From: Propionibacteriaceae bacterium
GTDB taxonomy: Bacteria; Actinomycetota; Actinomycetes; Propionibacteriales; Propionibacteriaceae
DNA length: 64,000 nt
Assembly (NCBI GenBank): GCA_027492545.1
Contig: JAPUEL010000032.1
Span: forward strand, 1-64,000
Reading direction: 5' to 3'
Positions within the stretch are counted from its first letter, which is position 1; every line of letters starts with the position of its first letter. The notes under the pieces were generated by a model. It did no database searches. It was not told the origin of the DNA and was given only the letters and a program-made list of their open reading frames with translations. Of the stretch, positions 6,377 to 12,067 are shown piece by piece. The translations under genes were made by a program, and so were the position numbers.

Positions 6377-6518
6377 AAACCCTGGCAATGTCGGGGTGAC
6401 GGACGCGGTCGAGGGTTGAGCGGGCCCGACCATTGCGGCTCTCATCGCGCTAGGGTTGGGCATCCGGCATGGGACCCACTGGTGCGTGCCGTTCGATCTT
6501 TCTTCGAGAGGAACTTTC

Positions 6519-9278
<2,760 letters not shown>

Positions 9279-9419: not shown

Positions 9420-9860
9420 GTGGAGAACGCAGAAGGCAAGGGCCTCGCATCGAGCAACGAAGGAGTGACCGGGGCGGACCTCCTGGGACTTGAATCCGGG
9501 TTGGTGGTGCAGGAACTCGGATGGGATGAGGATGTCGACGCGGTTCTGCGTGACGACATCATGGACATCATCGACGGGGAGATGATCGACGAGCCCATCG
9601 AAGCTGTGGACGTCGTCATCCTCTGGTGGCGTGAGGAAGACGGCGATGTGGTCGACGGACTCGTCGACGCGCTGACAGACCTCACCGACTCCGGCTACAT
9701 CTGGCTGCTCACCCCGAAGGTCGGCAGGCCAGGCTTCATCGGCCCGAGCTCGGTGGCCGAGGGGGTCACCATCGCCGGACTCTCGCTGACGAAGACGGCG
9801 AACGTGGGCGCGGATTGGCAGGCGACGAAGGTCGTCCGTCCCAAGGGCGCCCGCAAGTGA
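9420..9860 (+). CDS. DUF3052 family protein
   Basis: This is a soluble ~146-residue protein of a conserved actinobacterial family often found next to aceE, as here. Recognisable segments are VVQELGWDEDVD near residue 30, VVILWWREEDGD in the middle and SGYIWLLTPKVGRPG before the C-terminus. Its biochemical function is not established. The GTG at 9420 is chosen from where family similarity begins; a GTG at 9321 would lie in the terminator hairpin and add an unconserved stretch. Its stop overlaps the PFK start (GTGA), so the two are probably translated together. Confidence 0.8.
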   Translation: MENAEGKGLASSNEGVTGADLLGLESGLVVQELGWDEDVDAVLRDDIMDIIDGEMIDEPIEAVDVVILWWREEDGDVVDGLVDALTDLTDSGYIWLLTPKVGRPGFIGPSSVAEGVTIAGLSLTKTANVGADWQATKVVRPKGARK

Positions 9861-12067
9861 CCGCGCGCATCGGCGTCATGACCTCGGGCGGCGATGCCCA
9901 GGGCATGAACGCCGCGGTGCGTGCCATCGTGCGCACCGGCATCCATGAGGGGGCCGAGGTCTTCGCCATCCGTGAGGGGTGGCAGGGGGCCATCGAAGGC
10001 GGAAGCCATATCGCCCACCTCGGCTGGAGCGACGTCTCCGGCATCCTGAACAAGGGCGGGACCGTCATCGGCACCGCCAGGTCGATGGAGTTCCGGACCC
10101 GCGAGGGGCAGCTGACCGCGACCCAGAATCTCATCCAGTGCGGCATCGACAGGCTGATCGTCATCGGTGGTGACGGCTCGCTGACGGGGGCCCGTAACCT
10201 GTGCGTGGCCTGGCCCACGTATGTGGCCGAACTCGTCGAGACGGGGCGGATCACTGCCGAGCAGGCTGAGGCACACCCCAGACTCCACATCGCCGGGCTG
10301 GTGGGATCCATCGACAACGACATGGTCGGCACGGACATGACCATCGGCACGGACTCCGCGTTGCACCGCATCACCGAGGCGATCGACGCGATCAGCTCGA
10401 CGGCCGAGTCCCACCGACGCACGTTCATCGTCGAGGTGATGGGCCGACACTGCGGCTATCTGGCGCTCATGAGCGCGATCGCCGGCGGCGCGGACTACAC
10501 CTTCCTGCCGGAGTCGCCGCCGCGCCCGGGGTGGGAGGACCGCATGGTCGAGGTTCTCGCCCGCGGCCGCGCCGCCGGACGGCGGGACTCGATCCTGGTG
10601 GTTGCCGAAGGCGCGGCGGACCGAGACGGCGCGCCCATCACGGCAGACCGGATCCAGGGGGTGCTCCGGGAGCGCGCCGGCGAGGAGGCCCGGATCACGA
10701 TCCTCGGCCACGTACAGCGGGGCGGCACGCCGTCGGCGTACGACCGCTGGATGGCGACGGCGTGCGGCGTCGAGGCGGTGCGACGCGTCCTTGACGCCGA
10801 CGACGACAGCGAGCCGGTGCTCGTGGGGGTCCGTCGTGACGCCGTCGCGGGGACCCCGCTCCTGGCGGCCGTCGAGGCCACCCACCGGATCAGCGAGTAC
10901 ATCGCGTCCGGCGAATACCCGTCGGCCGTCTCGGCGCGCGGCCACGGGTTCACCACGATGATCGACATCTACCGCATGCTGTCGGAGGCGAAACCGAGCG
11001 TCGCGCCCTCCGCCAACGCCCGGCGCATCGCGGTCATGCATGCCGGCGCGCTCGCCCCCGGCATGAATCAGCTCGCCCGCGTCGCGGTCAGGTCGGGCCT
11101 GGACCTCGGGCACCAGATGGTCGCGATCCAGGGCGGAGTTCCCGGCCTCATCAACGGCGACTTCCGTGAGGTGGAGTGGTCGGACGTCGAGGGCATGGCG
11201 CACACCGGCGGAGCCTCGTTCGGCACGCGTCGCTACGTGGCGCAGGAGAGTGAGCTGTACCAGATGGCGCGCTCCCTGGAGGAGAACAGGATCGACGCGC
11301 TGCTGGTCATGGGCGGATTCCATGCCTACGCCACCGTCGACCTGATGGAGAAGGAGCGCCGCCGCTATCCGGCGTTCAACATCCCCGTCGCGGTCCTTCC
11401 CGCCAGCATCGACAACAACCTGCCGGGCTGGCCCATGGCGGTGGGCGCCGACACGGCGCTCAACACCGTCGTCAACTCCATCGACATGGTGCGCATGTCC
11501 GCGTCGGCGAGCAAGCGGGCCTTCGTCGTCGAGACCATGGGCCGCACCTGCGGCTTCCTCCCGCTCGTCGGCGGCATCGCCGGTGGCGCCGAGAAGGCCT
11601 ACCTGCCGGAGACGGGCATCACCCTCGATCAGCTCTCGAGCGATGTTGAGGCGTTGGTCGACGCCTTCGAGACGGGCCGCAGCTTCTACCTGGCGGTGAT
11701 GGGCGAGGAGACCAGCCAGCACTACACCTCGGATGTGCTGGCCAAGATGTTCGAGGCCGAGGGCCACGGCCTCTACTCAGTGCGCCAAGCGGTTATCGGC
11801 CACATTCAGCAAGGTGGCAATCCCTCACCGTTCGACCGGATCAACGCCACACGGCTGGCCTACCAGGCCGTGGTGAATCTGGATCTGCAGTTGCGGGAGG
11901 GCAGCACGACCTACGTGGCGGCACACAGCCCCACGCCGGGCCTGATGGCGCCGCTGCGCGTGGTGACCGACGCGATGGACTGGGATCTGCAGCGCCCGCG
12001 GGAGCAGTGGTGGACCACCTTGAGGTCGGTCTTCGACAAGCTGAGCAGGCGCCCCGGCCAGGAGTAG
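9857..12067 (+). CDS. pfk: Tandem two-domain 6-phosphofructokinase, eukaryote-like
   Basis: This 736-residue protein contains two PFK domains in tandem, whereas usual bacterial PfkA has one of ~320 residues. The N-terminal half (about 1-385) looks catalytic: TSGGDAQGMNA near 10, GGDGS at 104-108 (glycine as in ATP-dependent enzymes), SIDND at 151-155, EVMGRHCGYLAL and GHVQRGGTPSA. Between GGDG and SIDND it carries an insertion ending in LVGSIDND, followed by GTDMTIGTDSALHRI, which closely follows animal and fungal PFK-1. The C-terminal half lacks GGDG (GGFHAY instead) but keeps NNLPG, GADTALNT, ETMGRTCGFLPL and GHIQQGGNPSPFDR, like the allosteric half of eukaryotic enzymes. The likely role is fructose-6-phosphate phosphorylation in glycolysis with internal allosteric control. 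The GTG start overlaps the DUF3052 stop. Confidence 0.92.
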   Translation: MTARIGVMTSGGDAQGMNAAVRAIVRTGIHEGAEVFAIREGWQGAIEGGSHIAHLGWSDVSGILNKGGTVIGTARSMEFRTREGQLTATQNLIQCGIDRLIVIGGDGSLTGARNLCVAWPTYVAELVETGRITAEQAEAHPRLHIAGLVGSIDNDMVGTDMTIGTDSALHRITEAIDAISSTAESHRRTFIVEVMGRHCGYLALMSAIAGGADYTFLPESPPRPGWEDRMVEVLARGRAAGRRDSILVVAEGAADRDGAPITADRIQGVLRERAGEEARITILGHVQRGGTPSAYDRWMATACGVEAVRRVLDADDDSEPVLVGVRRDAVAGTPLLAAVEATHRISEYIASGEYPSAVSARGHGFTTMIDIYRMLSEAKPSVAPSANARRIAVMHAGALAPGMNQLARVAVRSGLDLGHQMVAIQGGVPGLINGDFREVEWSDVEGMAHTGGASFGTRRYVAQESELYQMARSLEENRIDALLVMGGFHAYATVDLMEKERRRYPAFNIPVAVLPASIDNNLPGWPMAVGADTALNTVVNSIDMVRMSASASKRAFVVETMGRTCGFLPLVGGIAGGAEKAYLPETGITLDQLSSDVEALVDAFETGRSFYLAVMGEETSQHYTSDVLAKMFEAEGHGLYSVRQAVIGHIQQGGNPSPFDRINATRLAYQAVVNLDLQLREGSTTYVAAHSPTPGLMAPLRVVTDAMDWDLQRPREQWWTTLRSVFDKLSRRPGQE

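Follow-up and report, generated by a model that had tools for sequence, protein, structure and literature searches.

Textbooks describe the tandem 6-phosphofructokinase PFK-1 as the product of a eukaryotic gene duplication that created new allosteric sites. In the eukaryotic enzymes (human PFKM, PFKL and PFKP, yeast PFK1 and PFK2; TIGR02478 / IPR009161) two PfkA halves are fused, the N-terminal half (N-half) being catalytic and carrying an insertion and the C-terminal half (C-half) being dead but still having a sugar-phosphate pocket, whereas single-domain bacterial PfkA (E. coli, Geobacillus; TIGR02482 / NF002872) consists of one domain of about 320 residues with an intact active site and no insertion. 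According to the parts of a 2025 superfamily review drawn on here, the C-half of the eukaryotic enzymes no longer has an ATP pocket, its old F6P pocket serving as the effector site for fructose 2,6-bisphosphate (F2,6BP), human PFKP holds F1,6BP in this former F6P pocket, and the tandem duplication is treated as eukaryotic, with no bacterial case mentioned in those parts (PMC12203962). A wastewater study has reported that EC 2.7.1.11 was laterally transferred in communities of this kind, at a level of description without domain detail (PMC4502571). Sequence databases would already name bacterial tandem proteins, via TIGR02478; in the open-access literature we came across neither a description nor an assay of a bacterial tandem PFK.

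Here we analyse a tandem PFK gene on a 64,000-nucleotide stretch of DNA (the window) from a Propionibacteriaceae bacterium, which an earlier note, made from the letters alone, had already singled out as encoding a PFK of eukaryotic type. We consider it very likely that its product is an ATP-dependent PFK-1 of the duplicated and fused eukaryotic type in a bacterium, with a dead C-half that acts as a sugar-phosphate effector half and with a single fusion at the root of all these enzymes. Its architecture, fold, residue conservation, distribution and common ancestry with the eukaryotic enzymes were all established by computation.

A bacterial enzyme built like eukaryotic PFK-1

The open reading frame (table 1) extends from a GTG start at 9857 to a stop codon at 12065-12067, has no internal stops and encodes 736 residues with two PF00365 domains (Pfam, E 7.8e-181), in agreement with the earlier note. 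Against TIGR02478, the NCBIfam model of eukaryotic 6-PFK, the protein scores 918 bits over model positions 2-742 of 744, the curated equivalog cut-off being 708.4 bits. Its best matches among sequences of solved structures, nearly full length, are human PFKP (671 bits), PFKM and PFKL, followed by yeast and Pichia PFK, with single-domain bacterial PFKs scoring far lower; identity to eukaryotic PFK-1 amounts to 41-44%. Taken together with the purifying selection in both halves described below, these scores exclude a chance resemblance.

Table 1. Positions of the tandem PFK gene, its parts and its upstream neighbours in the window.
Feature	Position	Strand	Evidence
Tandem (eukaryote-type) 6-phosphofructokinase gene, predicted ATP-dependent	9857..12067	+	TIGR02478; PDB matches; AF2 model
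N-half, residues 1-372, catalytic (by residues)	9857..10972	+	E. coli PfkA residues kept
N-half insertion, residues about 117-143, between GGDG and SIDND	10205..10285	+	alignments
Linker between halves, residues 373-385	10973..11011	+	alignment with eukaryotic PFKs
C-half, residues 386-736, non-catalytic, proposed sugar-phosphate effector half	11012..12064	+	residue map, dN/dS
C-terminal EQWW motif, residues 716-719	12002..12013	+	alignment with animal PFK-1
DUF3052 protein gene, upstream of PFK	9420..9860	+	PF11253, 157 bits; start codon inferred
aceE, pyruvate dehydrogenase E1, upstream of DUF3052	6456..9278	+	TIGR00759, 1344 bits

The predicted structure gives the same picture. An AlphaFold2 model computed from an alignment of 44 bacterial sequences (mean pLDDT 90.8, pTM 0.91) finds human liver PFK-1 (8w2g) as its first Foldseek match, over the whole chain (TM 0.96, rmsd 1.9, 745 columns), and every listed eukaryotic PFK-1 chain, with TM values of 0.92-0.96 to the structures of this family, precedes any bacterial PFK. 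The linker is mostly of non-regular structure in this model. The window enzyme thus has the fused halves, catalytic N-half, dead C-half with its sugar-phosphate pocket and N-half insertion of the eukaryotic enzymes, and with animal PFK-1 it also shares the C-terminal EQWW motif, of which Q717, W718 and W719 are at least 90% conserved among the 44 bacterial sequences; it differs from eukaryotic PFK-1 in having no extended C-terminal tail and from yeast PFK also in having no N-terminal glyoxalase-like domain. With single-domain PfkA it has the fold, the catalytic residues of the N-half and the ATP type in common, but at 736 residues, and with both halves in clades made up of tandem enzymes only, it is not a PfkA of the TIGR02482 type.

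All motifs that the earlier note had quoted are present, i.e. GGDGSLTG, LVGSIDND, GTDMTIGTDSALHRI and EVMGRHCGYLAL in the N-half and SIDNNLPG and GADTALNT in the C-half, where GGFH stands in place of GGDG. The insertion it had described between GGDG and SIDND is equally real: residues about 117-143 align without a gap to human PFK-1 (PFKP), and most of the single-domain bacterial PFKs compared pass directly from about residue 115 to residue 144 of the window protein. In E. coli numbering, the N-half keeps G11, R72, D103, G104, S105, G124, D127 and D129 as well as R162, M169, G170, R171, E222, R243, H249 and R252, its changes relative to E. coli PfkA (T125S, F73S, R82Q) being conservative or peripheral.

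Ancestry of the fused enzyme

The phylogeny with each half treated separately that had been suggested in the earlier note was run with 47 single-domain sequences from the loci plus three reference PfkA, the eukaryotes being represented by human and two yeasts, with sequences taken from solved structures. Checked against PDB chains, the yeast PFK1 and E. coli PfkA references are exact, and the PFKM reference differs by one residue near the C-terminus, outside the stretch used. With support drawn from FastTree and AU tests, the N-halves of bacteria and eukaryotes form one clade (0.91), the C-halves another (1.0) and both together a third (1.0), outside of which lie the single-domain PfkA; a grouping of the two window halves with ordinary PfkA duplicates was not seen. 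When the halves are paired, eukaryotes and two bacterial groups each receive 100 UFBoot, with group A drawn largely from a different class of Actinomycetota and group B uniting the window's own group with proteobacteria, and both bacterial groups are comparable in depth to the eukaryotic one. Human PFKP shares 51% identity with a Competibacter sequence and 43% with yeast PFK1. A single-domain PFK with the N-half insertion, i.e. a form preceding the fusion, was not evident among the single-domain sequences compared.

AU tests with the root of this tandem clade placed at eukaryotes, group A or group B let all three survive (pAU 0.20-0.34); C20-PMSF favours group A as the root by 5-10 lnL over the other two, and the C-half tree is rooted there as well. 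The C-half change D129N, which is the sole informative site in a positional count of polarised changes, is common to eukaryotes and group B only. This sharing and the C20-PMSF root preference lean weakly towards a fusion that would first have occurred in bacteria. We offer as a tentative idea, more doubtful than probable, that the fused PFK-1 is of bacterial origin and was passed to the animal/fungal ancestor, and that its dead C-half sensed an ordinary sugar phosphate, such as F1,6BP or F6P, at a time when there was as yet no PFK-2 and no signalling by F2,6BP.

Conversely, the bacterial genes could stem from recent or old transfers out of eukaryotes, as would fit the N-half FastTree, in which eukaryotes branch first and the bacterial tandem PFKs are united in a single clade (0.96), and a root at eukaryotes does survive (pAU 0.28 and 0.20). 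However, no bacterial sequence nests within the sampled eukaryotes, groups A and B are strongly supported and as deep as indicated above, and both the C-half tree with its D129N pattern and the advantage of about 10 lnL that the group A root has over the eukaryote root under C20-PMSF speak against this direction, which we consider unlikely. Thus, the kinship with the eukaryotic enzyme asserted in the earlier note stands, on the clades of the halves and on the rejection of independent fusions (see below), whereas the trees do not decide between the directions of transfer that it had considered, since three roots survive the AU test.

A dead active site as a putative effector half

In the C-half, D103 has become F, G104 H, G124 A, D129 N and R252 Q (E. 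coli numbering), and the loss of D103 and G104 is seen in all three lineages, i.e. eukaryotes, group A and group B. R72, R162, M169, G170, E222, R243 and H249 are retained in the compared bacterial sequences, and the window C-half is identical to the human one at R471, R566, M573, G574, E629, R655, H661 and Q664 (PFKM numbering). At position 127 the window group has Asp, bacterial group A has Asn and eukaryotes have Ser; with this Asp kept, unlike in eukaryotes, the pocket would not be identical to the F2,6BP site. The column of human Arg735, which we take to be a contact to the effector phosphate, holds Gln, and at D543, F308, F671 and K678 of PFKM, presumably the inhibitory ATP site N1, the window protein has D, Y, F and R.

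Relative to five relatives, dN/dS is 0.05-0.17 for the N-half and 0.07-0.17 for the C-half, values that indicate purifying selection on both halves, with a constraint on the C-half that is nearly as strong as that on the N-half; the C-half is thus not decaying. It could nevertheless be a structural or oligomerization scaffold only, with no ligand-binding or regulatory role, given that it is catalytically dead by sequence, that Arg735 is not conserved and that no PFK-2 gene would supply F2,6BP. We hold this to be quite unlikely, because not only the selection on the C-half but also the seven retained residues of its sugar-phosphate pocket argue against it.

ATP use, the C-half ligand and the oligomeric state, like the direction of transfer, are what we infer from these data. 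In the effector-half reading that we prefer, the N-half would catalyse the reaction F6P + ATP -> F1,6BP + ADP, and the C-half, as a dead copy that lost its ATP pocket and kept its sugar-phosphate pocket, would most likely bind F1,6BP, F6P or a similar sugar phosphate, the first two being our best guesses; such a ligand would then, as in the animal and fungal enzymes, switch the oligomer from an active to an inactive state or back. Internal allosteric control as such, which the earlier note had announced as new for bacteria, is an overstatement, as ordinary bacterial PfkA is already allosteric; what is out of the ordinary here is that a former active site, now dead, would have become an effector half.

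What this effector half could respond to depends on the metabolic setting. The genome of the window encodes a class I FBPase (a glpX-type FBPase was not found in it) and a separate PPi-PFK; no ATP-type PFK of this superfamily other than the tandem enzyme was found in it. PPi-PFK and FBPase represent opposing enzymes at the F6P/F1,6BP node and therefore a reason for control, and the tandem PFK is likely to provide committed, regulated glycolytic flux, with its C-half pocket sensing a sugar phosphate. Unlike in eukaryotes, no 6PF2K (PFK-2) gene was found in the genome of the window, nor in any of the 35 tandem-bearing genomes searched for it, which makes F2,6BP an unlikely effector of the C-half in these genomes. 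Bacterial enzymes in genomes with no detectable PFK-2 thus offer a natural way to ask for the ligand that this pocket had before F2,6BP.

Propionibacteriaceae use PPi-PFK, and the presence of one in this very genome might suggest that the tandem enzyme, too, depends on PPi. The two proteins share superfamily and metabolites, but the separate enzyme, which scores 730 bits with its own family NF005121, is a single domain with the PPi-type residues GGDD and PKTIDND, whereas the tandem N-half has Gly104 and Gly124, the ATP-type residues of the PFK family, and has ATP-type TIGR02478 as its best family match. PPi dependence was rejected on these residues and is very improbable.

The gene neighbourhood is consistent with central carbon metabolism. 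aceE is a conserved neighbour of the tandem PFK, i.e. context and no part of the enzyme, and in other lineages PGI (Actinomyces), lipoate ligase and lipoyl synthase (Propioniciclava) or oxaloacetate decarboxylase (Competibacter) are found nearby. The DUF3052 gene, which has no known function, shares its last 4 nt (GTGA) with the beginning of the PFK gene, an arrangement that suggests translational coupling; it lies between aceE and PFK and occupies the same place in Tessaracoccus/Arachnia loci.

One fusion in several bacterial lineages

That bacteria independently fused ordinary PfkA copies and came to resemble eukaryotes by convergence has a negligible probability: both halves and single-domain bacterial PFK do belong to one PfkA-like superfamily, but the insertion and the C-terminal EQWW are common to the bacterial enzyme and animals, and trees constrained to independent fusions were rejected, being worse by 193 lnL under LG+R4 (pAU 1.5e-8) and by 177 lnL under C20-PMSF (pAU 7.9e-23). 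With N-halves grouping with N-halves, C-halves with C-halves and independent fusions rejected, one fusion underlies the bacterial and eukaryotic enzymes; a single duplication and fusion, along with loss of the nucleotide pocket in the C-half, would have taken place before the bacterial and eukaryotic lineages diverged.

Tandem PFKs are common in Propionibacteriaceae and present in some other bacteria. From a genome scan 80 loci were retained, almost all of them full length and 51-92% identical, with Tessaracoccus, Arachnia, Propioniciclava, Raineyella, Austwickia, Buchananella, Actinomyces, Schaalia, Cellulomonas and Actinotalea as main carriers and Accumulibacter, Competibacter and Contendobacter as further ones beyond Actinomycetota. 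The TIGR02478 cut-off was passed by 51 of the 77 sampled Propionibacteriaceae genomes and 25 of the 396 sampled Actinomycetota genomes (the window genome being counted in both), by one genome out of 299 in a sample around Accumulibacter, namely the Accumulibacter genome itself, and by none of 14 control genomes. The possibility raised in the earlier note, that this type is widespread and already characterized, therefore turns out to be right for its spread within the family but not, in the literature we searched, for its characterization. Propionibacteriaceae, other members of the Actinomycetota and proteobacteria from wastewater all have the fusion by common descent, so a design with one dead half is found beyond the eukaryotes too.

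An assembly artefact or a lone transfer was ruled out by the intact gene in many genomes, some of them single contigs of several Mb. A mobile-element origin was likewise rejected: among the matches listed for plasmids, phages and viral contigs there was no convincing tandem copy, these matches being either of single-domain pfkA length (about 0.9-1 kb) or shorter fragments.

Some individual loci deviate from the common pattern. In one genome of the same family (L191, G781:C1:3401000-3404600), N-half and C-half lie in two overlapping frames, with a frame shift around residue 350, not far from where the halves join, which may be due to a sequencing error or may represent a pseudogene or a split enzyme. 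An in-frame TGA is reported for a group A tandem PFK (L099), and a tandem PFK is present in a genome titled Phycisphaerales (isolate GAO1; L032), a title that is probably wrong, as sampling the phylum around this genome yielded the set of genomes already obtained around Accumulibacter. Finally, in one Accumulibacter genome (L034, G396) no PFK other than the tandem one was found, and each of the other 11 genomes searched has at least one further PFK-family match.
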